Shown here piece by piece: positions 33 through 36,961 of a stretch of 47,558 nucleotides of DNA. This DNA is from an uncultured Verrucomicrobiota bacterium (GTDB lineage: Bacteria > Verrucomicrobiota > Verrucomicrobiia > Limisphaerales > CAIMTB01), in assembly GCA_903844265.1 (NCBI GenBank), contig CAIMTB010000471.1, positions 1 to 47,558 of the forward strand, in the 5' to 3' direction. A model generated the notes under the pieces. It was given only the letters and a program-made list of their open reading frames with translations, was not told the DNA's origin and searched no databases. Each line of letters begins with the position of its first letter. Within the stretch, counting starts at the first letter, position 1. The position numbers and the translations under genes are program-made.

Positions 33-95
33 AGAGGGGCGCCGTCCGTGGGTGCATCCGCAAGGACGGCGCGCAGCGGAGTGCACGCCCTACCG
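33..95 (+). repeat. Interspersed palindromic repeat, copy 1
   Basis: This is one of three related intergenic elements in the window (others near 41180 and 44820). A perfect 9-bp stem, GCGCCGTCC (39-47) with GGACGGCGC (64-72), encloses a 16-base loop. It is followed by a second, imperfect palindrome GGCGCGCA-GCGGAG-TGCACGCC (68-89). The same arm order occurs in all three copies. It lies upstream of the PSD1 gene. Its reading frames encode no recognisable protein, so upstream start codons inside or near it should not be used for that gene. The flanks outside 33-95 do not match the other copies. Confidence 0.8.
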
Positions 96-206
96 GTTGT
101 CAATCGCGCCGTCCTCCTCCATGATGAGGACGCTCAACCCATGCGAAGCGTTCCTTCCCCAAGCGGCCTTGTGCCCGTGCCCCTGCCGCGTCCCGGACTT
201 CGACCG

Positions 207-3200
207 ATGGACCCGCGGGTCCAGGGACTCGCGCTGGCGAGTGCTGTCGCGCTCCTTTGTTTTTGTTCGCTCCGCGTCCCCGCCGCGGAACCCGCGCCCC
301 CGACGGCCGTGGACTTCAATCGCGACATCCGCCCGATCCTTTCGCAGAACTGCATCTTCTGCCACGGCCCCGACGAGAAGCAGCGCAAGGGCGGCAAGCG
401 CGCGTCGGGAGGGTTCCGGCTCGACACGCTCGCCGGACAGCGCGAGGACCTCGGCGGGCATTTCGGGGTGGTCCCGGGAAAGCCCGACCAGAGCGAAATC
501 ATCCGTCGGTTGGCCGTGAGCGATGGCGACGAGGCGATGCCGCCGGCGAAGAGCGGCAAGAAGTTGACGGCGGAACAAATCGGGCTGGTTCGGCGCTGGA
601 TCGAGGCCGGCGCGAAGTTCTCGAACCATTGGTCGTATGAGAAGCCCGTCCGACCTCCGCTTCCGTTGGTGAAGGATGGGACATGGCCCCGCAACGGCCT
701 CGACAGTTTCGTCCTCGCGCGGCTCGAGTCGGAAGGGCTGAAGCCGCAACCCCAGGCCGATGTGGAGATCCTGGCCCGCCGCGTCGCGCTCGACCTCACC
801 GGCCTCCCGCCGGCTCCGGAGGAAGTGGACCGTTTCCTCGCGGACAACGATTCCGGCGCGTTCGAGCGGTACGTGGACCTCCTCCTCGCGAAGCCCGCGT
901 ATGGCGAGCACTGGGCGCGAATGTGGCTCGATCTCGCGCGGTACGCGGATTCCGCGGGATACGCCGATGATCCGCCGCGGACCATCTGGCCTTATCGCGA
1001 CTACGTGATCCGCGCCTTCAACGCCAACCTTCCGTTCGACCAGTTCACGATCGAGCAGATCGCGGGCGACCTGCTGCCGGATCCGAGCGAGGACCAGCTG
1101 AAGGCCACGGCGTTCCATCGGAACACCATGACCAACAGCGAGGGCGGCACCAACGACGAGGAGTTCCGCAACGTGGCCATGATCGACCGCGTCAACACCA
1201 CCTTCGCCGTGTGGATGGGCACGTCCATGGCCTGCGCCCAGTGTCACAACCACAAGTACGATCCCATCTCCCAGAAGGAGTATTTCCAGCTGTTCGCGTT
1301 CCTCAACAACACCGCCGACGCCGACCGCCCGGACGAGGCTCCACTCCTCACGTTCGACACCGACGAGATCCGCACGCATCGCGCGGAGCTGAACCTCGGC
1401 CTCGACGCGCTCGATGCAAAGTTCCGCTCCGAGACTCCCAACCTCGCCGCCGCCGCATACGAATGGGCCCGCGTGTTCGGCGCGAAAATGGAGTGGCAAT
1501 CGCCAAAGCCGGTGTCCGCGATGTCCGGGGCGGGCCACGCCATCACGGTGCTCGACGACTCCAGCGTCATCGTCGCGCCCAAGGGTACCAACCTCCTCAG
1601 GGACACCTACACCATCGATCTGCCGTTTGACTCGGCGACGACGCTCACGGCGTTGCGGATCGAGGCGCTGACGCACGAGGCGCTCGGCGGAAACGGCCCC
1701 GGGATGGCGGGGAATTTTTTTGTCCGCTCGGTGCGCGCCAAACTCCTGCCCGTCCCGAACCAGGCCGGCCCGTTGACCCGATTCGTCCGTGTCGAACTTC
1801 CCCGTCGTGGCTCGATCCGGTTGGCCGAACTCCAGGTCTTCAGCAGCGGCGAAAACATCGCCAAGGATTCCGTTCCGACCCAGAGCAGCACCGCCGGTGA
1901 GGCGCGACCTGCGCTTGCCGTGGATGGCAAGTCCGACGGCGCGCTCTCCATGACGCAGGAGGAGGACCAACCCTGGTTCGAGATCGACCTCAGGTCGGTC
2001 CGCCCGGTCGAGCGTATCGTCGTCTGGCCAGGGGCCGAACCCGGCAATCGCCTGGAAGGATTCCGCGTCGTGGCCCTCGACGAGAAACGGCAGACGGTGT
2101 GGGAGCAGGCCGGCAACTCGGCGCCCAGGAAGGAAGTGACCTTCGAACTCGCGGGTCCGCGCGAGGTGGAACTGGTCAACGCATCCGCCGACTACAACCA
2201 GGACAATCTCGACGAGGCCTTCGTGGCCAACGACGCGCCAAAATCGGCGCGCTATTTTCGAAAGCGCTCGGAGAAGGGTTGGGCGGTCGGGGGCGCCACG
2301 GGCAAGGACCACGTGCTCCTGCTGGGACTCGCGAAGCCGGTCGACGTCCCCCGCGGGGCGACGCTCTCCGTGACGATCGGGCAGCAGTCGAGCGCCGAGA
2401 AAAACCCGCTCGGCCATTTCCGGATCGGCACGACTTCCGACGGTCGCGCGGCGGAGTATGTGGACACGCCGCCTTCCGTGCGCGCCGCACTGGCGGTCGG
2501 GCCCGCGTCGCGCGACTTCCGGGCGGACGACGCGCAACGCGACCCGATCGTCGCGCATTTCGTGCGGCACATCGCGCCGGGCCTTCGCGACGAGCGTGAG
2601 CGCTACGCCCGGCTTCAACGCGAGCGTGACGAACTCAAGCCGCAGACGCTTCCGATCTACCGGGAACTCACCGGCAAGGATCGTCGCGCCACCAGGATCC
2701 AGGTCCGCGGCAACTTCCTCGTGACTACAGATGAAGTCGCGGAAGGCGTGCCCGCCGCCTGGCATCCGTTGCCGGGCAACGCCAAGCCCGATCGCCTCGG
2801 GCTCGCACGCTGGCTGGTGGATGCGGACAACCCGCTCACCGCCCGGGTCGTGGTCAATCGCTTCTGGGAACAGATATTCGGCATCGGCATCGTGCGGACC
2901 AGCGAGGAATTCGGTTCCCAGGGCGAGCAGCCCGTGAATCAGGATCTGCTCGACTGGATGGCCACCGAACTGGTCGCGCAACGCTGGAACGTCAAGGCTT
3001 TCCTCCGGGTGCTCGTCACCAGCGCCTCGTATCGCCAGTCCTCACGTGTCACGCCGGAAGTCCTCGAGAAGGATCCCGACAACCGTCTCGTTTCGCGCGG
3101 GCCAAGGTTCCGGATGGGCGCCGAGATGATCCGCGACCAGGCGCTCGCCGCGGCGGGATTGCTCAGCTCCCGAATGCTCGGACCCTCGGTGCGGCCTCCC

Positions 3201-3734
3201 CGCCCGAGCCTCGACCTTCGCGCGGCGTTTGGCGGAAACCTCGACTGGCAGACCAGTCCGGGTGAGGACCGCTATCGTCGGGGGCTCTACACCGAGTGGC
3301 GCCGGACGAGTCCGTATCCCTCGATGGCCACGTTCGATGCGCCGAGCCGGGAGGTTTGCACGCTGCGGCGCGGTCGTTCGAACACGCCGCTCCAGGCGCT
3401 CGTGACCCTGAACGACCCCGTCTACATCGAGGCCGCGCAGGGTCTGGCCCGGCGCATGATCGCGGCGGGTGCCACCCCGGAAGCGCGGGTGGGATGCGGG
3501 TTCCGCCTGGTCCTCTCGCGACTTCCTTCGCCCGTCGAACTCTCCGAGGTGACCTTGCTGCTGAGCGATGTGCGCGCTGATTTCGAGCGCGACCCGAAGC
3601 GTGCCAGGGCGTTGATCTCCGGCCCCGCCGCTGTCACCGCGCCCATCGCAGGGGAAGCGGAGGTCGATCTGGCTTCCTGGACCGCCGTGGCCAATGTGCT
3701 GTTGAACCTCGACGAGACGCTCATGAAACGCTGA
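207..3734 (+). CDS. PSD1/DUF1549/DUF1553 cytochrome-like secreted protein
   Basis: This large exported protein (about 1175 residues) belongs to the planctomycete-verrucomicrobial PSCyt/PSD1 family, whose function is not established; the heme motifs suggest redox chemistry outside the cytoplasm. I chose ATG 207 because it gives a normal signal peptide (hydrophobic stretch ending Val-Pro-Ala-Ala-Glu); ATG 141 is an alternative with a long proline-rich leader. Residues about 38-145 form a PSCyt1 domain with a CxxCH heme motif (Cys49, Cys52, His53) and a later Glu-Ala-Met-Pro-Pro that may supply the axial Met. A DUF1549 domain follows, with the family's second CxxCH (Cys343, Cys346, His347). The middle, roughly residues 530-640, looks like a discoidin (F5/8 type C) beta-sandwich, suggesting carbohydrate binding. 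The C-terminal third is DUF1553. The downstream DUF1501 gene is its usual partner and probably co-transcribed. Confidence 0.92.
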   Translation: MDPRVQGLALASAVALLCFCSLRVPAAEPAPPTAVDFNRDIRPILSQNCIFCHGPDEKQRKGGKRASGGFRLDTLAGQREDLGGHFGVVPGKPDQSEIIRRLAVSDGDEAMPPAKSGKKLTAEQIGLVRRWIEAGAKFSNHWSYEKPVRPPLPLVKDGTWPRNGLDSFVLARLESEGLKPQPQADVEILARRVALDLTGLPPAPEEVDRFLADNDSGAFERYVDLLLAKPAYGEHWARMWLDLARYADSAGYADDPPRTIWPYRDYVIRAFNANLPFDQFTIEQIAGDLLPDPSEDQLKATAFHRNTMTNSEGGTNDEEFRNVAMIDRVNTTFAVWMGTSMACAQCHNHKYDPISQKEYFQLFAFLNNTADADRPDEAPLLTFDTDEIRTHRAELNLGLDALDAKFRSETPNLAAAAYEWARVFGAKMEWQSPKPVSAMSGAGHAITVLDDSSVIVAPKGTNLLRDTYTIDLPFDSATTLTALRIEALTHEALGGNGPGMAGNFFVRSVRAKLLPVPNQAGPLTRFVRVELPRRGSIRLAELQVFSSGENIAKDSVPTQSSTAGEARPALAVDGKSDGALSMTQEEDQPWFEIDLRSVRPVERIVVWPGAEPGNRLEGFRVVALDEKRQTVWEQAGNSAPRKEVTFELAGPREVELVNASADYNQDNLDEAFVANDAPKSARYFRKRSEKGWAVGGATGKDHVLLLGLAKPVDVPRGATLSVTIGQQSSAEKNPLGHFRIGTTSDGRAAEYVDTPPSVRAALAVGPASRDFRADDAQRDPIVAHFVRHIAPGLRDERERYARLQRERDELKPQTLPIYRELTGKDRRATRIQVRGNFLVTTDEVAEGVPAAWHPLPGNAKPDRLGLARWLVDADNPLTARVVVNRFWEQIFGIGIVRTSEEFGSQGEQPVNQDLLDWMATELVAQRWNVKAFLRVLVTSASYRQSSRVTPEVLEKDPDNRLVSRGPRFRMGAEMIRDQALAAAGLLSSRMLGPSVRPPRPSLDLRAAFGGNLDWQTSPGEDRYRRGLYTEWRRTSPYPSMATFDAPSREVCTLRRGRSNTPLQALVTLNDPVYIEAAQGLARRMIAAGATPEARVGCGFRLVLSRLPSPVELSEVTLLLSDVRADFERDPKRARALISGPAAVTAPIAGEAEVDLASWTAVANVLLNLDETLMKR

Positions 3735-3774
3735 ACGCGTGCCGACTCGAACCCATCTCCATCCCCCGCCTGTC

Positions 3775-5247
3775 ATGAACCCGTTCCGAATCGAGCACCT
3801 GCAACACCAGACGCGCCGGCAGTTCCTCCTCCGCGCCGGCCGGTGCAGCCTCGGCGCCATCGCGCTCCAGTCCTTGTTCGCCGGGCCGGAGGCAAGGGCC
3901 GCGGCTCGATCCCAGGGAGCCGCGCCCGCTGATCCGCTCGCCCCGCGCCTCCCGCATTTCGCTCCCAAGGCCAAGCGGGTGATCTACCTGCACATGTCGG
4001 GAGGACCGCCGCACCTCGACATCTTCGATTACAAACCGGAACTCGTGAAGCGCGACGGCCAGGACTGTCCTGATGAATTTCTCAAGGGCCGCCGCTTTGC
4101 CTTCACGGGAGGCACGCCGAAGCTGATGGGCACGCCGAGAACCTTCTCGCCGCACGGCAGGTCCGGGATCTGGATGTCGGATGCGGTTCCCAATTTCCAC
4201 CGCGTCGCCGACGAGATGTGCGTGATCCGGTCGATGACCACCGACCAGTTCAATCATACCCCGGCCGAGTTGCTTCTCTACACGGGTTCACCGCGGCAGG
4301 GCCGGCCGAGCATGGGCTCGTGGGTCACCTACGGACTGGGAAGCGAGAACAGCGATCTCCCGGGATTCGTGGTCCTGATCTCCAGCGGAGTGCAACCCAG
4401 TGGAGGTCAATCGTGCTGGGGCACCGGCTTCCTTCCGTCCGTGTTCCAGGGCGTTCAGTGCCGCTCGAAGGGCGATCCCGTCCTCTACGCGTCCGATCCT
4501 CCGGGCATGGACCGCGCCATGCGCCGGCGAACCCTCGATTCGCTGCGGCGCCTGAATCAACTGCAGGAGGCGGAACTCGGCGACCCTGAGACCATCACGC
4601 GCATCGCCCAGTATGAACTCGCCTTCCGCATGCAGGCGAGCGTCCCGGAGGTGATGGACATCTCGCGCGAGCCGGCGTCGATGATCGAGGCCTACGGCGC
4701 CAGTCCCGGCGATGCGAGCTTCGCCAACAACTGCCTGCTCGCCCGCCGTCTGGTCGAGAAAGGCGTCCGTTATGTCCAGCTGTTCGACTGGGGTTGGGAT
4801 TTCCACGGCACCGGACCGGGCGAAGATATCCGGAACGGTCTCACCGAGAAAATGCGGCGCACCGACAAGCCCGTGGCAGCGCTCATCGCGGACCTGCGGC
4901 AGCGGGGATTGCTCGAGGATACCCTGATCGTCTGGGGTGGTGAATTCGGACGTACTCCGTTTCGCGAGGGGCGTACGGCGGGCTCCACAAACCTGGGGCG
5001 CGACCATTACCCGGATTGCTATTCGATGTTTCTCGCCGGTGGCGGCGTCAAGGCGGGCATCTCCTACGGCGAGACCGATGATCTGGGTTTCTCCATTGTG
5101 GAGAACCGGGTTCATGTCCACGACCTCCAGGCGACCCTGCTGCACCTGCTGGGATTCGACCACAAGCGGCTCACGCACCGTTTCCAGGGCCGCGACTACC
5201 GGCTCACCGACGTCCACGGCGAGGTGGTGAAGGATATCATCGCGTGA
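3775..5247 (+). CDS. DUF1501 domain protein, TAT-exported
   Basis: A 490-residue member of DUF1501, a family related to the alkaline phosphatase/sulfatase fold and usually encoded beside PSD1 cytochromes in Planctomycetes and Verrucomicrobiota. No substrate has been firmly assigned. The start at ATG 3775 places a twin-arginine motif (Thr-Arg-Arg-Gln-Phe-Leu) near residue 14, followed by a short hydrophobic stretch, so export as a folded protein is likely. A GTG at 3739 is in frame but would only add a weak leader. Visible conserved segments are His-Met-Ser-Gly-Gly-Pro-Pro-His-Leu-Asp near residue 75, Gly-Gly-Glu-Phe-Gly-Arg-Thr-Pro near 390, and Gly-Arg-Asp-His-Tyr-Pro a little later; the acidic and His residues there are plausible metal ligands. 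It starts 40 bases after the PSD1 stop on the same strand. Confidence 0.92.
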   Translation: MNPFRIEHLQHQTRRQFLLRAGRCSLGAIALQSLFAGPEARAAARSQGAAPADPLAPRLPHFAPKAKRVIYLHMSGGPPHLDIFDYKPELVKRDGQDCPDEFLKGRRFAFTGGTPKLMGTPRTFSPHGRSGIWMSDAVPNFHRVADEMCVIRSMTTDQFNHTPAELLLYTGSPRQGRPSMGSWVTYGLGSENSDLPGFVVLISSGVQPSGGQSCWGTGFLPSVFQGVQCRSKGDPVLYASDPPGMDRAMRRRTLDSLRRLNQLQEAELGDPETITRIAQYELAFRMQASVPEVMDISREPASMIEAYGASPGDASFANNCLLARRLVEKGVRYVQLFDWGWDFHGTGPGEDIRNGLTEKMRRTDKPVAALIADLRQRGLLEDTLIVWGGEFGRTPFREGRTAGSTNLGRDHYPDCYSMFLAGGGVKAGISYGETDDLGFSIVENRVHVHDLQATLLHLLGFDHKRLTHRFQGRDYRLTDVHGEVVKDIIA

Positions 5248-22108: not shown

Positions 22109-25100
22109 TCAACGAACGCTGATCGCCCGGAAATACTCACCGGCCAGCGACGAGGTGGCCGGCACCGGGACGGAGAAGGTCGCCGCCGGGGCGGTGTTGG
22201 TTGCGAAGGGGACCCAGTTGACGAGGTCCTCCGAGAGTTGGAGTACGTAACTCTGGCCGGGTTCGGTGGACAACGAGAGTTTGAGTTGGCCGGGTCCGGT
22301 GACCGAGATTCCGGTGAACCTGATGGGCTTGGAGACGGAATAGCCGTGGAGTCTGGCGAGATAGGGAGCCGACAGCCCGTTGAAATGGGTGAAATCCCCG
22401 CCGATGATCAAGGCGCCGTCGGGTTGTGAAGCGATGGCATTGACATGGCCATCGCTGCCGGAACCGGAGCTGAAGGTCGGGTCATGGGTACCGTTGGCAT
22501 TCAGGCGTACGACGCCGCCGTGAGACTCACCGTTGTAGCTGGTGAACGCGCCGCCGATGACGATGCGGTCATCGCTTTGGACGTGGAAGGCATAGGGATA
22601 ACCGCTCAGGCCTGTGCCCTGGCTGTTGAATGTCACATCCACCTGGCCGGTGGCGCCCAACCGTCCGAGATAGGGGAGGGCCACGCCCGAGATGGCCTTG
22701 AACAAACCCCCGATGAGGATCCGGCCGTCGGATTGGGAGGCGACGCACAGGACCGTGTTGTTGGGGCCTTCGCCGGGGTCGAAGGTGGGGTCGATCGAGC
22801 CGTCTGGAAGAAGTCGGGCGACTCGGTTTCGCGGGATGTTGTTCACCTTCGTGAAATCCCCGCCAATGAGGATCCTGCCATCTCCCAGGACTTCGATTGC
22901 TCTTACCGTGGCGTTGGGCGCGGAGGCGAATCCGGTGTCGAGACTGGCGTCCTCGAAGACGCGGACGAGGAAACCGGGGCTGGTACCGTTGAACTGGGAG
23001 AAGTTTCCTCCGACGAGGGTCTTCCCGTTGGGAACGACGACGAGCGCGAGCACGTCACCGTTCGGCCCGAGGAGGGGGTCGAAGGCAGTGTCCAACGTCC
23101 CGTCGGGGGCGAGGCGGGCGAGGCGTCTGCGGGTGATGTCATTGACCGTTGTGAAGCGTCCGCCGATGAGGGTATGGCCATCGGGTTGCACCGCCACGGC
23201 GCTGGCGAAGTCGTTGAGCCATGAAGCTCCCGTGAAGGTGGGGTCGAGGGTTCCGTCGGCGGCGAATCGCGCGATCCGGGTATGTCCCACCTCGTTGGCG
23301 GCGAGGAAATTCCCTGCGGCGACGAACCGGCCGTCGGGTTGGGCGGCGAGAGCGAGGCAGACTCCGTCGAGCGCAGCGGGGAACTCGGTGTCCAGCGTGC
23401 CGTTGCCGTAGAACCGGTCGTCATTGAGGATGACCAATGGGGCGGTCCTCCTGGGGCCGAGGGTGGCTCCACCGGTTGGATTGGACAGCGTGAGGAGGAC
23501 GGTTTCGTCGTCCTCCACCGTCGTGTCGGGGCGGATCGTGATGGTGACGGTCTTCCTCGTTTCGGCGGTGCCGAACGTGAGGTGTTGCGAGACGGCGGCG
23601 TAGTCTCCGGCCGTCGCGGTGCCATTGCTTGTGGCGAAGTCGACGGAGACCGGGCTGTCGGTATTGCCCGTGCGGCGCACCTCGATCGTGACGACGGGGT
23701 CAGACTCACTGGCGGAATAGGATGCGGCGGAGAATTCGATGGAACCACCACTGGCGTTGTCACTGCCCAGAAGTCGGATGAGATAGCTCCGGGCAAGTCC
23801 ATTGAATTGCGTGAACTCACCGGCGACCAGGAGGTTGCCATCGGACTGGACGGCGAGCGAGCGCACGGAACCGTTGAAGCCCGCCCCGGTGTCGAAGCTG
23901 GCATCGACGGAGCCGTCCATTCGCAGGCGGACAATCCGGCCGCAAGGCTGGCCGAGGACCTGGGTGAAGTTGCCGCCCGCGAGCACGAGATTCTCCCGCT
24001 GCGCGACGACGGAATAGACCGGTCCGTCGAACCTCGCGTCGAACGAGGTATCGAGGTGGCCCATTGGATCCAGCCGCGCGAGGCCGACGGTAGGCTTCCC
24101 GTCGACCGTGGTGAATGATCCGGCGACGAGTATCTGCCCGTCGGCCTGCACGGCGATGGAGTGGACAGATCCGTCAAAGCCCAGTCCCGGGTTGAAATCG
24201 CGGTCGAGAATTCCACTGGCTTCCAGTCGTGCGATCCGGCGCCGGGGAAGGCCGTCGACCTGGGTGAAATCCCCGCCTACCAGGATACGGCCATCCTCCT
24301 GGCGGAGGAGTGTGCGGACCGAACCTCCTGAGAACTTCGTCTTGAAAGTGGGATCCAAGGTTCCGTCGGAATAGAGGCGGGCGAGGCTGCTTTGGCTGGT
24401 GGATCCATAGACCGTGAACACCCCGCCGGCGAGAATGTCTCCGGAGGGGAGGACGAGGAGGGTAAGCAGGGATCCGTTCGGTCCGGCGCCGGGATTGAAG
24501 CCGAGGTCCAGGGAACCGTCGATGTTGAGGCGGGCGACGCGGTTTCTAGGGAGGCCGTTGACGAGTGAGAACTGGCCGCCCACGATCAATTTCCCGTCCG
24601 GCTGGATCGCCAGGGCGTGGGTCGTATCATCGAACCAGGTTCCCGGAGAGAAGCTGGTGTCGAGCCCTCCGTCGGGCTGAAAACGGGCGAGGAAGAGACG
24701 GGAGCGGCCATCGACTTCGGTAAAGGATCCTCCCGCGAGGAAGCGGCCATCAGGGAGCGGAAGCAGTGACTCGGCGATGCTGCCAATCCTTCCCGCGAAG
24801 GTGGCGTCGGCACTCCCTGCGGTTGCCGAGACATCATCATTGAGCACGGTCAGGGTCGCGTTGGCATAGGTTCCGAGCCGGCCTCCTCCCGTCGGGTTGG
24901 AAAGGGTCAGGCTGATGGTTTCGTCGTCTTCCACCGTGGAGTCCGCTCGAATGGGAATCTGGAAAGTCCTGCGTGTTTCTCCGGGAGCAAAACTCAGTTT
25001 TCCGGACTGGGCGGTGTAATCCCCGGCGTTCGCGGTTCCGTTGCTGGTGGCGTAATCCACGGTGACTGCCGTGGTGGCGAAGCCGTTGCGGCGCACTTCG

Positions 25101-27811
25101 ATGCTTGCGAATGCGTCGGTTTCGCCCGCCTGGAAACGGGGGCGCGCGAACTCGATTTCTCCACCGGTGGCGGAGCTGATGCCGAGGAGGTGGACGATAT
25201 GGGCGCGATTCAATCCGTCGAACTGGGTGAAATTGCCGACGGCCACCACATCTCCCTCCCCGCAGGCGGTCACGGCATTGGCGATGGCGTTGAACCCATT
25301 TCCCACCACGAAACTGGGGTCGGCCACCCCGTCACTCGAGAGGCGCGCGATCCGCGATCGGGGAGCCCCTCCGGCCGTGGAAAAATCTCCCACGACGACG
25401 ATCTTGTCCTCGCTCTGGACGAGCAGTCCCCGGACTTCTCCATTGAGGCCAGGTCGGAACCCTGGGTCGAGCGTGCCGTCCGTGAACAGGCGCGCGAGGT
25501 AGGGGATCGTGGTGAAATCGATGTAATTGAAGATTCCGCCGACCAGGATGCCTCCATCGGATTGAAGCGCGAGGGTGGAGACGGTGTTGTTGGGGCCCGG
25601 GCCTGGGTCGAAGCCGGTGTCCAATGTCCCGTCATTGTTGAGTCGGGCCAGCCGGGTTCGACTGAGTCCGTTGACCGTCGTGAAATCTCCGCCGAACAGG
25701 ACCTTGCCGTCAGGTTGGAGCAGCAAGGTGTGCACGGCGCCGCCATTGACCGTGACGGGAAATGCGGTGTCCAGGCTGCCATCGCTGAAGAGCCGGGCAA
25801 GATAGGCCTGTGGAAGGCCGGCGACCGTCTGGAATTGCCCGCCAACGATCAGGTCGCCCGTGGGCAGCTCGAGCATGGCATACACGTCGCCGGCTGGGCC
25901 GGAGCCGATGTTGAGCGTGGGATCGGGACTGCCGTCAGTCTGGAGTCGGGCGAGATGGCTTTGCGGGTTGCCGTTGAGGGCCGTGAATTGGCCCCCGACG
26001 AGGATCCTGCCGTCTGTCTGGATGACGAGGGCCAGGGGGGCGGCGTTGAACCAGGCGAGCTGGAAGGTCGCATCGAGGGCGCCTTCCTCGAGGATTCGGG
26101 CGATGCCGAGTCGGCTGACCCCGTTGACTGCCGTGAAGGCTCCGGCGACGATCGTGCTTCCTGCGGATTCGGGGGCGATCGCATAGCCGTTCCCGTTGAG
26201 GGTGGCCTTGAAGGTGGGCTCCACGGACCCGACATAGCTGGTGGCGTCGTCGTTGAGGATGACGAGCACCGCAGTGCGCAGCGCGCCGAGAGCGGCGCCT
26301 CCACCGGGGTTTGAGAGGGACAGGTTGACCGTCTCGTCATCCTCGACCACCGCATCCTGGCGGATGGGGACGGTGAAGGTCTTTCGTGTTTCTCCCGGGC
26401 CGAAGGATAACTTGCCGGTCTGGGGAAGATAGTCGCCGGCATTGGCGGTTCCGTTGCTCGTGGAGTAGTCGACCGTGACGGGGGAGCTGCTGTTCCCCGT
26501 TCTTCGGACCTCGAGGGTCGCCGTGGTCTGGCTCTCACTTGTCGAATAGGACATCGATGAGAACTCGAGTTCACCGCCCTCGGCGGTGCTCAGTCCCAAC
26601 AGCCGGGCAATGAACGGTCGGGGTTGGTTGTCGACCTCGGAGAACCTGCCGCCGAGGATGACATTGCCGTCCAGCGGCGTGGCCATGGCGGTCACGGTGC
26701 CGTTGCAGCCAGCCCCCGGGTCGAAGCTGAGATCCACTCGTCCATCGGCCCGCAGGCGGGCCACCCGGCTCCTGGATTGGCCGTCCACGATCAGGAAGTC
26801 GCCCGCGATGACGACCTTCCCGTCACCGAGGACCGAAACACAGGACACCGGTCCATTGACGCCGGGGTCGAAGAGGGTGTCGAGCGAGCCGTCCGGGTTG
26901 AGTCGCGCGAGGTTGGCCATGGAGGCACCCGCCACGGCACTGAACGTGCCGCCGATGATCAGGCTGCCATTGGGAGCCAGAGCGAGGGCCTGAACGCTGC
27001 CGTCGGGACCCGGCCCGGGCTCAAAGGTCGCGTCGAGCGTCCCGTCGGGCAACAGCCGGGCGACACGGTTTCGGGGAACCCCGTTCATCCGGGTGAAATC
27101 GCCGGCGACCAGGATGCGGCCGTCGGATTGGGCGAGGAGCGCGCGGACGACGCCGTTGGGGCCGGTGGTTGCGGAGGAACCGGCGAGGAACGAGTTATCA
27201 AGCGTGCCGTTGGGCTTGAGTCGGGCGAGGAAGCTTCGTGGCGATTCCCCCAAGTGGGTGAAAGCGCCCCCAATCAGGACCGAGTCCCCGGGAAGTGGCA
27301 GCATCGCGAGGACTTCCTGGCTGGGTCCGGCACCCGCATCGAAGGCGGGGTCGAGGGCGCCGTCCGGGGAGAGGAGGGCCACCCGGTTTCGTGATGTCCC
27401 GTTGAACTGAGTAAACGATCCGGCGATGAGAATCCTGCCGTCTGCGCGAATGGCGAAGCTGAGGATGTCCGAATCCGGACCGGAACCGGCGGCGAACTGG
27501 GAATCCGTGGAGCCGTCGACGTTGATCCGGAGTAGATGGCTGTGGTTTGTGCCCCCCGCGGAAGTGAAGCGTCCAGCGACCAGAATCCGGCCGTCATGGG
27601 GATCTCCCAGTGCCTCTACGTAATCATTGGGAGCGGTCTCCGTAGGATAGCTTAAGTCCAGAAAACCGGGTTGTGCCAGGGCTTGGGTCGATGCTAAACA
27701 AAAGACGTATAACCACAACAGGCACAGCCATTTGGAGAAGGGAATCCGACTGACAAACGGAGGTGTTCCGGAGGCATGTCGGGGCTTTGGTTTTTGGTGA
27801 TTTGTCCTCAT
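22109..27811 (-). CDS. Giant exported delta-60 repeat / Calx-beta protein
   Basis: A roughly 1900-residue exported protein of unknown function. ATG 27811 gives a basic leader and a hydrophobic segment (about residues 28-47) ending Gln-Ala-Leu-Ala-Gln. The body alternates four delta-60 blocks (about 50-405, 524-874, 995-1350, 1467-1822) with three Calx-beta domains (about 407-522, 875-993, 1352-1466). Each block holds exactly seven repeats built around Gln-x-Asp-Gly-(Arg/Lys)-Ile-Leu-(Val/Ile)-(Ala/Gly)-Gly-x-Phe-Thr and a following Ala-Arg-Leu. Seven such units suggest one seven-bladed beta-propeller per block. Calx-beta domains bind calcium and are common in surface adhesins. The last 65 residues match the end of the divergent giant protein at 28016. 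Adhesion or matrix function is inference; no enzyme motif is seen. The continuous frame upstream of 27811 runs into the neighbouring gene and is rejected. Confidence 0.88.
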   Translation of the reverse strand: MRTNHQKPKPRHASGTPPFVSRIPFSKWLCLLWLYVFCLASTQALAQPGFLDLSYPTETAPNDYVEALGDPHDGRILVAGRFTSAGGTNHSHLLRINVDGSTDSQFAAGSGPDSDILSFAIRADGRILIAGSFTQFNGTSRNRVALLSPDGALDPAFDAGAGPSQEVLAMLPLPGDSVLIGGAFTHLGESPRSFLARLKPNGTLDNSFLAGSSATTGPNGVVRALLAQSDGRILVAGDFTRMNGVPRNRVARLLPDGTLDATFEPGPGPDGSVQALALAPNGSLIIGGTFSAVAGASMANLARLNPDGSLDTLFDPGVNGPVSCVSVLGDGKVVIAGDFLIVDGQSRSRVARLRADGRVDLSFDPGAGCNGTVTAMATPLDGNVILGGRFSEVDNQPRPFIARLLGLSTAEGGELEFSSMSYSTSESQTTATLEVRRTGNSSSPVTVDYSTSNGTANAGDYLPQTGKLSFGPGETRKTFTVPIRQDAVVEDDETVNLSLSNPGGGAALGALRTAVLVILNDDATSYVGSVEPTFKATLNGNGYAIAPESAGSTIVAGAFTAVNGVSRLGIARILEEGALDATFQLAWFNAAPLALVIQTDGRILVGGQFTALNGNPQSHLARLQTDGSPDPTLNIGSGPAGDVYAMLELPTGDLIVGGQFQTVAGLPQAYLARLFSDGSLDTAFPVTVNGGAVHTLLLQPDGKVLFGGDFTTVNGLSRTRLARLNNDGTLDTGFDPGPGPNNTVSTLALQSDGGILVGGIFNYIDFTTIPYLARLFTDGTLDPGFRPGLNGEVRGLLVQSEDKIVVVGDFSTAGGAPRSRIARLSSDGVADPSFVVGNGFNAIANAVTACGEGDVVAVGNFTQFDGLNRAHIVHLLGISSATGGEIEFARPRFQAGETDAFASIEVRRNGFATTAVTVDYATSNGTANAGDYTAQSGKLSFAPGETRRTFQIPIRADSTVEDDETISLTLSNPTGGGRLGTYANATLTVLNDDVSATAGSADATFAGRIGSIAESLLPLPDGRFLAGGSFTEVDGRSRLFLARFQPDGGLDTSFSPGTWFDDTTHALAIQPDGKLIVGGQFSLVNGLPRNRVARLNIDGSLDLGFNPGAGPNGSLLTLLVLPSGDILAGGVFTVYGSTSQSSLARLYSDGTLDPTFKTKFSGGSVRTLLRQEDGRILVGGDFTQVDGLPRRRIARLEASGILDRDFNPGLGFDGSVHSIAVQADGQILVAGSFTTVDGKPTVGLARLDPMGHLDTSFDARFDGPVYSVVAQRENLVLAGGNFTQVLGQPCGRIVRLRMDGSVDASFDTGAGFNGSVRSLAVQSDGNLLVAGEFTQFNGLARSYLIRLLGSDNASGGSIEFSAASYSASESDPVVTIEVRRTGNTDSPVSVDFATSNGTATAGDYAAVSQHLTFGTAETRKTVTITIRPDTTVEDDETVLLTLSNPTGGATLGPRRTAPLVILNDDRFYGNGTLDTEFPAALDGVCLALAAQPDGRFVAAGNFLAANEVGHTRIARFAADGTLDPTFTGASWLNDFASAVAVQPDGHTLIGGRFTTVNDITRRRLARLAPDGTLDTAFDPLLGPNGDVLALVVVPNGKTLVGGNFSQFNGTSPGFLVRVFEDASLDTGFASAPNATVRAIEVLGDGRILIGGDFTKVNNIPRNRVARLLPDGSIDPTFDPGEGPNNTVLCVASQSDGRILIGGLFKAISGVALPYLGRLGATGQVDVTFNSQGTGLSGYPYAFHVQSDDRIVIGGAFTSYNGESHGGVVRLNANGTHDPTFSSGSGSDGHVNAIASQPDGALIIGGDFTHFNGLSAPYLARLHGYSVSKPIRFTGISVTGPGQLKLSLSTEPGQSYVLQLSEDLVNWVPFATNTAPAATFSVPVPATSSLAGEYFRAISVR
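22345..27660 (-). repeat. Four 7-unit delta-60 arrays separated by three Calx-beta domains
   Basis: This is the repeat region of the long minus-strand gene. Seven repeats per block, 28 in all, were counted by the Gly-Gly-x-Phe core. The second Asp codon of the Asn-Asp-Asp that closes each Calx-beta domain lies at 26246-26248, 24833-24835 and 23417-23419, giving periods of 1413 and 1416 bases (471 and 472 codons). Repeats at the same place in different blocks resemble each other: the third unit of every block has a Pro-based turn such as Leu-Pro-Ser-Gly-Asp or Val-Pro-Asn-Gly-Lys. This points to duplication of whole propeller-plus-Calx modules. Confidence 0.8.
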
Positions 27812-27866
27812 GTCGGTCCGACTGAACCAGTAGTAGAAGGTGAAGCGTTGCCAAGGCGAGAAATTA

Positions 27867-27890
27867 GTGGCACTGAACCATCCATGCCAC
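27867..27890. promoter_or_regulatory. Inverted repeat between the two giant genes
   Basis: GTGGCA (27867-27872) and TGCCAC (27885-27890) form a perfect 6-bp inverted repeat with a 12-base spacer in the 204-bp divergent intergenic region. It lies 56 bases upstream of the minus-strand gene and 126 bases upstream of the plus-strand gene, so one bound regulator could affect both. No convincing -35/-10 elements are visible. The symmetry is real; the operator role is inferred. Confidence 0.3.
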
Positions 27891-28015
27891 CCGGCAGCCA
27901 AGGAGAGAGTGAGTTTCGAAGTCGGCGCGACCCGCAGGGAGAGGGGCAGGAAGTGCGCGGGTGGGCGAGGTGGGGTGGGCCCTCCTCGGGATTCCTCGGA
28001 TCGGCCGTTGTCCGG

Positions 28016-31000
28016 ATGCTCTCGATCGGCAGGATCCTGGTTCTTGCGACGGCGATGGGAGCGGTCATCACGGGGGCGTGGGCGGGGTTGCCGATGGGCG
28101 AGGATTTCGCGACGGATCCTGTGGCGGCCGGGCGATTCGTGCAAGGGACGGCGGGGACGGAGAGCGTGCTGACCTACGATGCCGCGGGTCACCGGCTTGT
28201 GGCGTTGCTCGATGTGGACAGCAGCCCGGCCTATTATCTTTCCAATCTTCTTCCTCCGGTGGGTGACGGCGACACTTTTTCATTCTCGGCCGAGGTGCGT
28301 GTGGAGTCGGTGGACGACCGGGCCTCGCCGATGGTTTTCATCGGACTGATGACGACCACCCACGTGGGCAAGTTTGGGGATGGACTGAGTGTCAACCTGT
28401 CGACCTCCCATGGCCGGCTGGTGGCCACCGCGAGGGTGGACGACTCCGGGGCAGCCCAGGAGAAGTTCGAGGGAGCCGAAGTGGAGATACAACTCGGCAC
28501 CGACTATCTCGTGGCCGGAACTTACTCGGCCGCGACGCGTGAGTTCATGGTCACGGTCTTCGGCGGTCCGGCGTTCATGCATTTCGTCGGACGTTCCATG
28601 GCCGTCTATCCCGAGGGCCGCCATCTTTCGGTCGACCGGCTGGGCCTGCAGAACAACGGGGCGCAGACGACGGATTCGGCGGCGGGCTCGCTGACTGTCT
28701 CGGTGGGCAGGCTGGACATCCCGGGACGTTTCCCGGTGGTGCTGACGGCGGCGGACGTGATGGTGGGCGAGGGCGATTCGGGGACGACGAACGCGGTCTT
28801 CCAGCTTGAGATTTCGGCGCCGAGTTCGCAGGTGGTCACGGTGGGGTACGAGACCGCGGACTACACGGCCGTGGCGGGGTTGGACTACGTTGCTGTTTCG
28901 GGAACGGCCACCTTTCTGCCGGGCATGACCAACGTATGGGTTTCGGTGCCGGTCCTCGGCGATCGCAATGTGGAGACGAACGAGACGTTCGAGTTGCACC
29001 TGAGCAGGCCGGACAACGCGAGCCTCGTGGCCTTCAACGCGATCGCGACCATCGTGGATGACGATGTGGCGATCCTGTCGGTTGTGGATGCCGTGGTTCG
29101 TGAGGGTGATGCGGGCATGGCGAGTGCGGATTTCGTGGTGACTCTCGGGGCGGTGAGCTCGCTTCCGGTCTCCGCGCACTACGAGACGGTGCCGGGGACG
29201 GCCTCGGCGAACGTGGATTTCCTGTCGGCGTCGGGCACCGTGACCTTCCCGGCTGGAACGACACGACAGGTCATCTCGGTTCCCGTTCTCGGCGACACGA
29301 TGAACGAGGGCGACGAAACCTTCACCGTGGTCCTTTCCAGCCCGGAGAACGGTGTTCTAGGGAACGGCATCGGCATCGGGACCATCGTCAACGACGATGC
29401 GCAGCCGACCTTCTCGGTGGATGACATCTCGGTGACCGAGGGTGATCTCGGGCCGGTGAATGGAGTGTTCACCGTCCGCCTCTCGAATCCCACTTCGGAG
29501 CCGGTGCGGGTCTCCTACTCGACCACGGACGGCACCGCGGGGGCAGGGTCCGACTATCTGCGGCGGTACGGAACGGTGACCTTCCAGCCCGGAGTGACTT
29601 CCCAGGTGGTGCCGGTGACCGTGCTGGGAGATACAAGATACGAATCGGACGAGGATTTCTTCCTGAGCCTGACGTCGAACACCCTCCTTGCGCTCCCTAC
29701 CCGGGACCGGGCGCGTTGTGTCATCGTGAATGACGACAGCCCGCCTTCATTGACCATCGGCGACGTTTCGGTGGCGGAAGGAAATGCGGGCGAGACCAAC
29801 GCGACCTTTGTCGTGCATCTCTGGCCGCCGTCAGACCAGATCGTGTCGGTGGATTACCGGACAGTGTCGGGGACCGCGGTGGCGGGGCCTGATTTCCTGG
29901 CGGCGACCGGGACGCTGACATTCCTGGCGGGTGTCACGAACCAGTGCATCCGGGTGCGGGTGCTGGGGGACACGGTGAATGAGCCGAACAAGACATTCCT
30001 CGTGGAATTGGCCGCGGCGACGAACGCTGCCGTGGCTCGCGGACAGGCCGTGGGAACGATCGTCAACGATGACGGCGTCTCGGTGAGCATCGAGGGAGTC
30101 ACCGTGACCGAGGGCAACAGCGGGACGGTGGATGCGATTTTCAAGGTGAATCTGTCGGGCCCCGCGACATCGCGGGTGACGGTCGACTACGGCACCGTGG
30201 GCGGGACCGCGACCCCGGGCGCTGATTTCCTGCCGCGGGCCGGCACGCTTGTTTTCGACCCGGGCGTCGTGAGCATGCCGATCGTGGTGCCGGTGGTGGG
30301 CGACATCCTGGATGAGCCCGTGGAAGCGTTCACGGTGGTGCTGGGCCGGGCGGTGGGCGCGACCTTGGCGACGGCGCAGGGCACGTGCATCATTCTCGAT
30401 GATGATCTGCCCGCGATCTCCGTGATTGGGCAGATGGTGGTGGAACCGACGGAGGGCACCTCTCCCCTCTTGTTCTTCGTCAGCCTTACCTTGCCCAGCG
30501 ACCGCGTGGTCACCGTCGATTATGAGACCGCCGACCTGAGTGCCAAGGCGGGGACCCATTACCTTCCCGCGTCCGGGACCTTGACCATTGCCCCGGGTGG
30601 GACGGCGGGGACGGTTGCGGTGCTGATACGTGCGGATCATCTCGACGATGCGAACCGCACATTCCTCCTGCGATTGACGAACCCGGTGGGGGCGACCCTC
30701 GCGATCGGCGAGGCGGTGGGAGGCATCGCCGACGTCGACGCAGCACCGGTGCTTAGCATCCAGGAACAACTGTCTGTGTGGGAGGGTGACAACGGCGCCT
30801 CCAACGCCACGGCGCAGGTGGTCCTGTCGACACCCAGTGCCAAGGTGGTGAGTGTGGATTACTCGACCTCCGACGGGAGCGCCGTGGCGGGCCAGGATTA
30901 TCTCCCTGTGCGCGGCACTGTACGGTTTCCTCCCGGGGAGACGCGGGCGTTCATCACGGTGCCGGTGATTGGGGACACCGTCGGGCAGGGGGACCGGTTC

Positions 31001-34000
31001 TTCCGTGTGGACCTGGGGACGGCCGTGAACGCGCCGGTGGTGGTAGGGCATTGTCTGGTCATGATATTTGACGATGACCTTCCCACCCTGTCCGTGCGTG
31101 ACGTCGCCGTGCTCGAGGGGGATTCCGGGGCGACCAATGCGGCGGTGGTCGTGAGTCTTTCGAAGCCTTCGGACAGCCTGGTGACTGTCGAGTACGCGAC
31201 ACTGGACGAAACGGCGAAGGCCGGCGTGGATTACCGGTCGGTGGTGGGGGTGGTGAGTTTCGTGCCCGGGATGTTGCATCAGACCGTCCTGGTCCCCGTG
31301 CTTGGCGATCGGGATCCGGAGGGCAACGAGCGGTTCCATCTGATGCTGTTCAACCCGGTGGGCGCCGCCCCGCCCACGCTCGACGGGTTGGTCACGATCA
31401 TCGACGACGACATCCCGAAGGTGACGGTGAACAATCCTTCGGTGCTCGAAGGTGCCGCCGGGACCCTGACTCCCATCGTGTTCACCCTTTCCTTGGGAGC
31501 ACCCCTGACCTCGACCGCGTCGTTGAGATTCGCCACCGCGGATGTCACGGCCCGTGCGGGGCTGGATTACATCGCGACCAATGGGATCGTCGTGTTCCCG
31601 GCGGGGACGACGAACCAGAGCGTCATCGTGTGGGCGACCGGGGACGACCTGCCGGAAGGTGACGAGGCCCTGCTTCTCCAGCTTTTCGACCCGGTCAACG
31701 TGGCGCTGCAGTTTGCGGCGGCATCCGCGACGATCCGGGACGATGACGTGCCCCCGGAGATTTCGGTGGATGACGTGGCCTTGCTCGAGGGTGACAGCGG
31801 GCCGGCCAACGCGGTCTTCACCATCCGTCTTTCGCGCTCGAGCAGCCAGGTGGTTTCCGTGGATTTTGCGAGCTCAGACGACACGGCGACGGCGGGTTCG
31901 GATTATCTGCCGCGCAGCGTCCGCGTGGGGTTTCCCCCGGGGAGCACCAACCGCACCGTCACCGTCCCGGTGCTTGGCGACACGAGCTTCGAGCCGAACG
32001 AGACTTTCATGGTCAGGCTGGGTGCCCCCACGAATGGGACCCTGGCGCGCAGCGTGGGTGTGGGGACCATCATCAACGACGACCGCGTGCCGATGGTGAG
32101 GGTGGACGACGTTGTCGTGCAGGAGGGGGACTCGGGTTTCGTGCAGGCCCTGTTCACCGCCACGCTGGACCGCTCGAGCCTCGAGTCTGTCTCGGTCGAC
32201 TACCAGACTGTTGCCGGCACCGCGACGGCGGGCATCGACTTTGTTCCGGCGCAGGGCAGATTGATTTTCGCGCCGGGTGAGGTTACCCGGCAAATCTCGA
32301 TCTCCGTGGTGGGAGATACCCGGATCGAGGACGATGAATTTTTCACCCTGGGCATTGTAAGTCCCGTCAACGCGACCCTGTGGAATTCATCCGCCAAGGC
32401 GACGATCCGGAATGACGATGGCGCGACGATCCGCATCGCCGGGACCGCGGTGAAGGAGGGGAATTCCGGAAGCACGATGGCGGAATTTCCGGTGACCCTC
32501 GACGCCCCGTCCGACAAGCAGGTGAGTGTGGATTACTCGACCGAGGATGGCACGGCGACTGGGGGCCAGGACTACACGGCGGTTGCCGACACCCTGGTCT
32601 TCGCGCCGGGCGTCACGAGCATGGTGGTGCGGGTTCCGGTTCTGGGCGACATCCTCGACGAACCCTCCGAGACATTCCGGGTGAAGCTCGGGAATCCGCG
32701 GAATGCGGTCATCGGGGTGTCCGCGGCTGTCGGGACCATCCTGGATGACGATCCTCCGTCGATCACCGTCCATGACGCCTCGATCAATGCGGGCAATGGC
32801 ACCGTGGTGGCGGAGATTCCCGTGAGCCTGAGCTCGCCGAGTCTGCAGGCGATCCAGGTCGACTACGCGACGTTCAATGGAACGGCGAACGCGGGCACCG
32901 ACTACGAAGGAACGGCCGCGAGCTTCTCCTTCCAGCCGGGGGCGACCAATGGAGTTCTGCGCATCACGGTGAAGGGCAACACGCTTGACGAGGGGTCCGA
33001 GTACTTTGTCGTCGCGCTGGCCAATCCGCGGTATGCCACCATTGGGCGGGGTCGCGGCAACTGCACGATCCTGAACCTCCTGCGGGCCAATGTTCCGCCG
33101 GTGGTCGATCTTCTTTCCCCGACCAACGGGGCGTCGTTCACGGCTCCCGCCAACATCTCCCTGACCACCTCGACCTCGGATCCCGATGGCGAGGTTGTGC
33201 AGGTTGAGTTCTTCGCCGGGGCCGTCTCCCTGGGTGTCTCCACCCAGCGACCGTTCCAACTGGATTGGTCGCCTGTGACTCCCGGGACCTACTCGCTGAG
33301 CGCGCTCGCCACCGACAACCGTGGCGCGACGACGATCTCGGGCGCGTCGGTGGTGACCGTGGGTTCCGTGGCCGTTGACTCGGCCTGCGCGGTGCAGGTG
33401 TATCAGGCCGCCTTCGATGATCTTACGGCTGGGACGGAATGGTCGGCGCGGGTGACGTCCTCGACTCCTGGCAGCCGGGAGGGATATCTCGGGCCGTTCG
33501 GTAACGAGACGGTTTCACTGAATCTCGGCCGACTCCCGACCCATTCCATGGCGGTCATAGCGTTTGATCTCTACCTGCTCAATGCCTGGGGTGAGAGTTC
33601 GACGGGTGGACAGGATATCTGGGAAATGTCGGTTGAGGGCGGTCCGACTCTGGTGCGGACCCGTTTCTCCAATCAGTCCGGTGGCAGGCAGTCCTATCCG
33701 GGACCCTATCCCGGCGGTGATTTCCCGGCCGGGACAGGCGCCGTGGCGGTGAACTCGCTGGGTTATGACTCACCGGGTGACTCAACCTATCATTTTGAAC
33801 TGCCCTTCATGCATCCGGGCACTCCGATCGTCCTGCATTTCACGGCGCGCGGACTTTCACTCCCGTCGGGTACCGCGGCCTGGGGGTTGGATAATGTCGT
33901 CGTGCGGATCGTTTCGGAGAGCGATCCCTCGGTGACCACCTCGCCGTCCGGGCAGACCGTCAATGCCGGCGCCGACGTGTTGTTCCAGGTGCAGGTCGAA

Positions 34001-36961
34001 AGTGTCACGCCGCTCCATTACCAATGGCGTTATAATGGGACCGGGTTGACGAATGCCACGGGCTCGACCCTTGCCCTGCACGGGGTGACCTCGGCGCAGG
34101 CGGGTGTCTACGATGTCGTGGTGGGCAACTGTGCGGGTTCGATCATCAGCGCCCCGGCCCAGTTGGTCGTGAACACGACGAGAACACCGCCGACGGTTTC
34201 CCGCATTCCAAGCGCGACGACCCTGGAGGATGCGACCTCGGCACAGATAGGGTTCACGATCGGTGACCGGGAGACTCCGGTCGGCGACCTGCGGGTGACG
34301 GTGGTCTCGCTCAACAAGACCTTGATCCCGGACACCGGGCTTCACATCACCGGCAGCGGGGCGGACCGTTTCCTGGTGGTGGGTCCGGCGCCGGATCAGT
34401 TCGGGACGGGCGGGATCATCGTGACGGTGACGGACTCCGACGGCCTCCGGGCGAGCGAGGTATTTGACCTGGTGGTGAAGCCGGTGAACGACGTGCCGAC
34501 CCTCGGTCCGATCGCGGACCGGGCTGTGGACGAGGATTCGGGGCCGCTCGTGATTCCGCTCCTGGGCATTGGGGCAGGGGTTGCCAACGAGAACCAGAGG
34601 CTTTCGGCAAGTGTGAGATCCGACAATCCGGCACTGGTCGCGACGGCGACGGTGAGCTACTTCACCCCGGCGACCTCGGGAGCCCTGACCCTGACCTTCC
34701 CGGCGGATGCCAGCGGCACCGTCAAGGTGACGGTCACGGTGCGTGACGACGGCGGGACGCTGGATGGCGGAGTGGATCAAGTCTCCCGGACCTTCCTCGT
34801 GACGGTGAATCCGGTGAATGATCCGCCGTCGTTCCTGGCGGGGCCCGATCAGGTGGTGGAAGCTGATTCGGGCGCGCGGATCGTATCGGGTTGGGCGAGG
34901 TCGATTGTCGCCGGACCCGCCGATGAGGCTGGTCAGGTCATGGTTTTTGGTCTGACGAGCGATGTTCCCGCGTTGTTTGCGGTGGCGCCCTCCGTGAGTT
35001 CTACCGGGGTCCTGAGCTTTACTCCGGCTCCCGGCAAGAGTGGCACGGCGCACATGGTCGTGACGTTGCGGGACAATGGCGGAACAGCACGCGGCGGTTT
35101 GTCCGCAGGCTCACCGCAATATTTCACGATCACCGTACGGCCTCACGTGAACCAGTCGCCGACCGTGAATCTCTCAAGCCCTGCTGCGGGCAGCGTGTTC
35201 CAGGCCGGCCAGGACATCGTGCTTCGGGCCGTGGCGGCGGACGCCGATGGGGCTGTGTCGAGGGTCGAGTTTTCCCAGGGTGGCACGAGGCTTGGGGACG
35301 CGGTGGCCGCGCCGTTCGAGTATGTCTGGCGGGGTGCCGTGCAGGGGAATTACATGCTGACGGCGACGGCGACCGACGAGAATGGCGCGGCGACGGTCTC
35401 GGTGGCGGTGCCGATCCAGGTGACCGCGCCGGGCAACCAACCGCCGCTGGTGGCCATCACGAGCCCGGCCGACCTGAGTGGGTTTGGTCCCTATTCGACC
35501 GTGGTGGTGGATGTCTCGGCCTCTGATGCTGACGGGACGGTGACCCGGGTGGAGTTGTTCGCGGGATCGGTCTCGATCGCGGTGATGACAGCGGCTCCCT
35601 ATCGCTATTCGTGGGCGGATCTGTCGGTGGGAGATTACGTCCTGACGGCGAGGGCCACGGACAATCGGGGTGCCGTGGCCATCTCGGATCCGGTGCAGTT
35701 GGTGGTGAGTGAGTTCAACGGGGAAGTGGCCGTGGTCCGGAACGGCGACGATGCCGAGATACAGGCCTTGAAGCAGTATCTCTTCGGGATGGGGCTCACC
35801 TCCCATGTGTTCGACCAGTCCGGGATCACCCTGCAGGAATTGAAGGAGCACTCGCTCGTCATCTGGGATGACTCGGGGCGTCGCGGACTTGCGGATGCCA
35901 CGGTGGAGATGCTCTATGGTGTCTATCAATCGGGGGTTCCGCTGTATCTCATCGGGGACAACCTGGGGGCCGCGCGGGCGGATCTTTCCCCGTCGAACCG
36001 AGAGCGTTGGGACGAGTTGCTGCATGCCTATTCCGTGGGTGGCAAGGCTTCGGGCGCCGGGACGGTTGTCGTTCCCGTGATTGGGGAGTCCCACTGTCTC
36101 CTCGAGGGCAAGTTTGGCCTCGTCTCGAGCTTCGCCTACACCAATGCCTATGACCGGATGTCGGCCAACACCGACGCGGAGTCGTACGGGGTGGGGCTTG
36201 GCGGTGACGTCCTGATCGGTTATCCGACGCTTGTCAGTGCCGATGTTGATTGGGACGTGGTGCGCATCTTCACCCAGCATGCGCGGTTGATCACGGGCGG
36301 TGGGCCGGCGTCGGAATTGGAGCGAAAGCGGGTTTTCCAGAACGCCGTGACCTGGCTGCTCAAGCGTTGCCGGTTGTGCACGTCGTTGAAGCTGTCGGTT
36401 GACCTGGTTGCGCCGGAGGATCCGCTGCAGGTGGGGAAGCCGGCGACGTTCACCTTCCGGGTGCGCCAGAGTGGGGAGTGCGAGGGCGTGGATGTTATGG
36501 TGACCCACCAACTGGCTCCGGGCGTGTCATTTGTGTCGGCGGATTCGAAGCGGGGCCGGGTGGATCTTGCCGGCGGGGTGGTGACGTTCAGCATCGGTCA
36601 CATGTCGAGCGCGGAGAGTTCCGAGATGAGCCTGACGGTTGTGCCGATGGTGCCGGGCGAGCTCCTGACGGGGATCGGCGTCTACTCGTTGAACGACCCG
36701 TTTGACCCTGAAACCCACGTGAGCTGGGTCACGAACCAGGTTTCCGGGGGGGCACTGCTGTCGTTTGGCCTGGCCGGCGACGGTCAGATGACGCTGGCGT
36801 TGTCGGGCACGGTTGGGAAGGCGTACCAGATCCAGACGTCGAGTGACCTGGTCCATTGGACCGCGATCACGAATGTCGTCGGGCCGGCCTGGTCGATGCC
36901 GGTTCCGGGGTCCCAGGGTTCGTCGCTGGGAGGGAAGTATTTCCGGTCGCTGGAGCGGTAG
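28016..36961 (+). CDS. Giant secreted multidomain Calx-beta protein
   Basis: A roughly 2981-residue exported protein of unknown function. ATG 28016 starts a standard signal peptide (Met-Leu-Ser-Ile-Gly-Arg, hydrophobic run, Ala-Trp-Ala-Gly). A jelly-roll or lectin-like N-terminal domain (about 25-235) is followed by 13 Calx-beta domains in tandem (about 246-1686). Then come an Ig-like domain (1692-1782), a second jelly-roll-like domain (1790-1968), another Ig-like domain (1972-2052), cadherin-like domains (2058-2377) and two more Ig-like domains (2379-2567). Next is a Rossmann-like segment resembling class I glutamine amidotransferase-like proteins but with no evident catalytic Cys (2570-2785), then a DUF11-like domain (2790-2898). 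The C-terminal 65-residue module matches that of the divergent neighbour. The design is that of a calcium-dependent surface or matrix adhesin; that role is inferred. In-frame upstream sequence lacks a signal peptide and is rejected. Confidence 0.88.
28750..33075 (+). repeat. Tandem array of 13 Calx-beta domains
   Basis: Thirteen domains of about 110 residues lie in tandem in the plus-strand giant gene. Most open with Val-x-Glu-Gly-(Asp/Asn)-Ser-Gly, then Val-Asp-Tyr-x-Thr, Asp-Tyr/Phe-Leu, a Pro-Gly turn, Val-Pro-Val-Leu-Gly-Asp, and close with Asn-Asp-Asp. Units 6, 9 and 13 have altered opening motifs (for example Asn-Ala-Gly-Asn-Gly in unit 13) and may have lost calcium ligands. The copies are clearly diverged from one another at DNA level, so the array does not look recently expanded. 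Confidence 0.8.

Follow-up and report, generated by a model that had tools for sequence, protein, structure and literature searches.

Two divergently transcribed genes in a contig of an uncultured Verrucomicrobiota bacterium (CAIMTB010000471.1; "the window" below is the whole analysed stretch of 47,558 nucleotides) encode giant exported proteins that appear to have little in common except for their last residues. The question raised by this locus is what such a common tail does, and in particular whether it is a sorting signal of the kind exemplified by the type IX secretion tail, as a sequence-only reading had proposed.

A common tail on two divergent genes

The features relevant to this question are the following.

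22109..27811, minus strand: carrier gene 1, with a signal peptide, delta-60/DUF5122 propeller repeats, three Calx-beta domains and the terminal module
22112..22327, minus strand: tail module of giant protein 1, PIRFTGISVTG...YVLQLSEDLVNW...EYFRAISVR, followed by the stop at 22109-22111
27812..28015, no strand: 204-bp stretch separating both divergent starts
28016..36961, plus strand: carrier gene 2, with a signal peptide, 13 Calx-beta domains, Big_7, Ig and DUF11 domains and the terminal module
36749..36958, plus strand: tail module of giant protein 2, ending in KYFRSLER, followed by the stop at 36959-36961

Translation of gene 1 probably starts at the ATG at 27811 (minus strand) rather than at the mechanical ORF start at 28192, and that of gene 2 at the ATG at 28016 (plus strand) rather than at 27776; read from these codons, both N termini are signal-peptide-like. 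Elsewhere in the window, positions 48-5247 of the plus strand encode a Planctomycete-type PSCyt1/PSCyt2/PSD1 protein with an F5/8C-like domain, which is followed by a DUF1501 gene.

The two tails align with a Smith-Waterman score of 123 over ~61 residues, compared to 23.8 +/- 4.6 for the shuffled control (maximum of 50 in 5000 shuffles) and to 38-44 for a tail aligned with the remainder of the other giant; the identity between the ~70-residue tails is 38%. The bodies differ, with a propeller and Calx-beta domains in giant 1 as opposed to 13 Calx-beta and Ig-type domains in giant 2. The initial observation that the C-termini align despite the difference between the bodies is thus borne out: the motifs listed at that stage are present in both tails, and the regions assigned to them (22112-22340, minus strand, and 36760-36961, plus strand) are near the refined boundaries.

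A phylum-wide family of terminal modules

Searching with one tail as the query, we detected 33 places in the same genome at E<=10. A profile built from 27 members matched at least 105 places at E<=1 and at least about 85-90 at E<=0.01, and the true numbers may be higher because 150 of the 279 candidates were scored. Extraction of ORFs yielded at least 67 that contain the module at E<1e-3. Across the phylum, the module was found in 138 of the 289 sampled Verrucomicrobiota genomes, with the copy number per genome reaching at least 20. The surmise that many verrucomicrobial proteins may carry this tail is therefore well founded. The family consensus is APSLAVVLLAGGGLRLTFSGAPGRTYVLESSSDLASWTPLGTVTTPASGSLEFTDPSAAGGAARFYRARVRP, or, in short form, pG-x-x-Y-x-l-E-x-S-x-D-L-x-x-W ... 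R-F-Y-R-x-x-x-x-P, with the strongest conservation in Y, E, S, D, L, W and R of Y-x-l-E-x-S-x-D-L-x-x-W and in F-Y-R.

Comparison of the 27 module sequences with Pfam produced no credible family match, NCBIfam gave no match in the tail region of either giant, and matches among PDB sequences were weak and discoidin-like; accordingly, assignment to a known family was rejected. Our literature search found no description of the module either, in agreement with the earlier statement that no named signal of this form is known. The terminal module is real and phylum-wide, and it is undescribed within the libraries and papers searched. We also rejected a plasmid or phage origin, given that tblastn gave no match and no copy was found in viral contigs. 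A core-motif scan of contigs recovered 11 loci, 9 of them labelled as Verrucomicrobiota groups, 1 as Spirochaetaceae and 1 as Omnitrophota. The latter two are module-like copies beyond Verrucomicrobiota (the Spirochaetaceae MAG locus L152 and the Omnitrophota MAG locus L157); because the L152 copy closely resembles that of L153, labelled Opitutaceae, transfer or a binning error is possible.

Placement, cargo and predicted fold

In the genome of the window, about 55 of the module-containing ORFs have the module at the C-terminus, 7 at the N-terminus after a signal peptide and 3 internally, and 2 could not be placed. Among the ORFs from this genome with the stop in view, 54 of 59 finish 0-7 residues past the module; the 55th C-terminal case, a minus-strand ORF of 601 aa (L070, G000:C567), has three tandem copies, the last of which is degenerate and, judged by eye, closes the protein. 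The distribution is similar in other genera, where 37 of the 39 closed ORFs have a C-terminal module, with 1 following a signal peptide and 1 internal, and the best matches from other genomes and from named contigs are nearly all C-terminal as well. In two copies with an apparent distance of 23-26 residues to the end, an insertion precedes a terminal FYR. Overall, about 85-95% of the copies are C-terminal.

The chain typically ends at a nearly constant point: the distance from FYR to the stop is 2-13 residues, and 4-6 residues in 105 of the 128 C-terminal copies. The last residue is proline in 62 of 134 copies compared to 8 of 153 background ORFs, a set that may include spurious ones. Because proline at position +5 is also found in about 6 of the 16 non-terminal copies, the sharp end and the proline mark the edge of a domain and do not prove recognition of a free end.

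The non-terminal copies are informative in their own right. At least 10 lie directly behind a signal peptide (L076, L159 and L183-L189, including two neighbouring genes in L185), and the bodies that follow include a pectate-lyase-like fold, DUF3160 and a metallo-beta-lactamase fold; internal copies are found in L065, L066, L092 and L218. The two neighbouring genes (L185; G000:C322, 2955-4238 and 4186-6540, minus strand) share the order signal peptide, module, unrelated body, and one of the bodies matches the PPDK_N ATP-binding domain, which is odd for an exported protein. The proposed C-terminal location thus holds for 55 of the 65 placeable ORFs in the window's genome and for 37 of 39 elsewhere, with the N-terminal, tandem and few internal copies as exceptions. 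Because a minority of the copies directly follow a signal peptide, the module does not qualify as a secretion tag restricted to the C-terminus. These exceptions do not fit an obligatorily C-terminal signal and do fit a domain that can function from either terminus, so that a pure C-terminal sorting signal appears unlikely.

A crude rule assigns a signal-peptide-like start to at least 47 of 61 carriers, compared to 10 of 26 control ORFs; the expectation of N-terminal signal peptides on the carriers is therefore supported for most but not for all of them, and several of those without such a start resemble pieces of larger genes. By eye, no convincing lipobox was found at the cleavage site among the carriers. 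The bodies are highly varied and of extracellular types, including GH44, S8, M4, NHL, LRR_5, FG-GAP, ASPIC, cadherin-like and Calx-beta domains, so that the tail indeed recurs, as had been suggested, on otherwise different, mostly Sec-exported proteins. In two carriers, the match to a choice-of-anchor family stops shortly before the module (choice_anch_R above the cut-off in L073, choice_anch_C below it in L096); the choice-of-anchor label is used for proteins whose C-termini, in other organisms, carry any of several alternative sorting signals.

AlphaFold2, run with a 12-sequence alignment on both window tails, produced six-stranded models with pLDDT of 81.3 for giant 1 and 72.3 for giant 2. 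In VIA-align, the models superpose on fibronectin type III (FN3) chains, namely TENCON, FN3tt and the N-terminal domain of the pectate lyase PelI, over a region that begins at the start of these 90-93-residue domains and reaches about residue 74-78, and the end of this alignment agrees with the observed position of the stop. Because the Z scores of 5-7.7 are below 8, the range that the tool takes to indicate possibly only a common arrangement, we tentatively describe the module as a predicted six-strand beta sandwich that resembles strands A-F of FN3 and lacks G. If this fold is right, the last (FYR) strand would lie at the edge of the sheet, where a strand from a partner could complete it.

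A possible sorting signal or docking module

Among the known systems, the type IX C-terminal domain (CTD; Por_Secre_tail, RgpB CTD) offers the closest parallel in architecture: it comprises about 70-80 residues that form a beta sandwich at the extreme C-terminus of many unrelated Sec-exported cargoes, and the chain stops right past the last strand. Unlike the CTD, which is a seven-strand Ig-like sandwich, the module is modelled with six strands and is also found in N-terminal, tandem and internal positions. Por_Secre_tail did not match any of the 27 modules in Pfam at E<=1 or either giant in NCBIfam, and no type IX CTD structure is among the VIA-align matches listed for the two models, an absence that carries no weight either way. 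The predicted strand order aligns with strands A-F of Pfam fn3; however, the models appear to leave no room for strand G, the Y-x-l-E-x-S-x-D-L-x-x-W and FYR signatures are the module's own, and the fn3 profile matched none of the 27 members at E<=1. Discoidin (F5/8 type C, CBM32) domains share the short stretch Y-x-i-q-x-S-x-D ... W-t-x-v, but the module is about half their length and has a different predicted fold, and the matches are weak (E 0.002 in a profile match to the discoidin domains of a glucanase/chitosanase; at best 12.4 bits against a gathering cut-off of 28.2 for F5/8 type C in Pfam). In the same genomes, PEP-CTERM likewise occurs at the C-terminus of exported proteins, whereas the module tails end in FYRxxxxP, with neither a transmembrane helix nor a basic tail.

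Co-occurrence with one secretion or anchoring system, which a sorting signal might be expected to show, did not emerge. The type IX family SprA_N was detected in 0 of 289 genomes, and it also matched none of the control genomes. Secretins are present in 282 of the 289 genomes, so that co-occurrence with type II or other secretin-based secretion does not discriminate. Each of the 112 genomes that have at least three modules encodes an exosortase, and the 74 genomes lacking this enzyme show two module matches at most; however, exosortase is also present in 103 genomes with fewer than three modules, and we accordingly take the association as a correlation with lineage or genome size. The genome of the window encodes 10-14 PEP-CTERM proteins. 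None of 13 extracted PEP-CTERM sequences (duplicates included) carries the module, and a search for tail swaps between carriers and PEP-CTERM homologues returned weak BLAST matches, with no clear pair.

Taking these lines of evidence together, we favour, with a probability of roughly 40%, an autonomous terminal docking or retention module of exported proteins. Under this model, Sec would export the carrier, the module would fold afterwards, and its uncapped last (FYR) strand or a conserved face would bind a common envelope or extracellular-matrix partner, which would keep the attached enzyme, propeller or adhesin at the cell surface. The module itself, its abundance, its terminal position, the export signals on most carriers and the unrelated bodies are observed; from them we infer the docking, the existence of a common partner and the part played by the open strand. 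A passive cap, or a module that binds glycans, would also produce much of the same pattern.

The next reading in rank, which we nevertheless regard as unlikely, is a C-terminal sorting signal akin to the type IX CTD, in which a new verrucomicrobial outer-membrane translocon would recognise the module, once folded, together with its last strand, and would export or anchor the cargo. In its boldest form, which we consider equally unlikely, the module would be the address label of an undescribed Verrucomicrobiota sorting or anchoring system of the outer membrane that reads a terminal Ig-like domain of six strands, the last one open, and serves dozens of cargoes per genome. The extreme C-terminal bias across the phylum, the narrow FYR-to-stop distance, the unrelated exported cargo with its two choice-of-anchor-like bodies and the PEP-CTERM sequences free of the module all argue for sorting, and the RgpB CTD, too, is a terminal Ig-like sandwich with the signal in its last strands (PMC4804311). 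The position and the cargo anticipated for a sorting signal were thus found, but the idea is weakened by the copies behind signal peptides, the three-copy tandem and the few internal copies; furthermore, the SprA_N search, run without a positive control, was negative, and no translocon candidate was found. Such freedom of placement is usual for carbohydrate-binding modules (CBMs) attached to enzymes, and a small carbohydrate- or substrate-binding module would also account for the CAZyme-like carriers (GH44 in L063, pectate-lyase-like in L183), the conserved aromatics and the weak discoidin match. We consider this role still more doubtful, given that the majority of the bodies do not act on glycans (propellers, Calx-beta, LRR, proteases, the metallo-beta-lactamase fold), that the module is only about half a discoidin domain and that no Pfam match reaches the gathering level. 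A passive cap at the end of exported multidomain proteins, which would protect them from unfolding or proteolysis, would require no partner and would explain both the placement at either end and the sharp domain edge; it is nonetheless the least probable of the four, because Y-x-l-E-x-S-x-D-L-x-x-W and FYR are conserved on unrelated bodies and one end is strongly preferred.

Giant and degradative proteins are exported in large numbers by Verrucomicrobiota and, to our knowledge, little has been established about how they are kept at the surface. With the module, common to dozens of unrelated exported proteins per genome, many C-termini that so far lack an assignment can be annotated, and the study of protein display in the phylum gains a tangible starting point.
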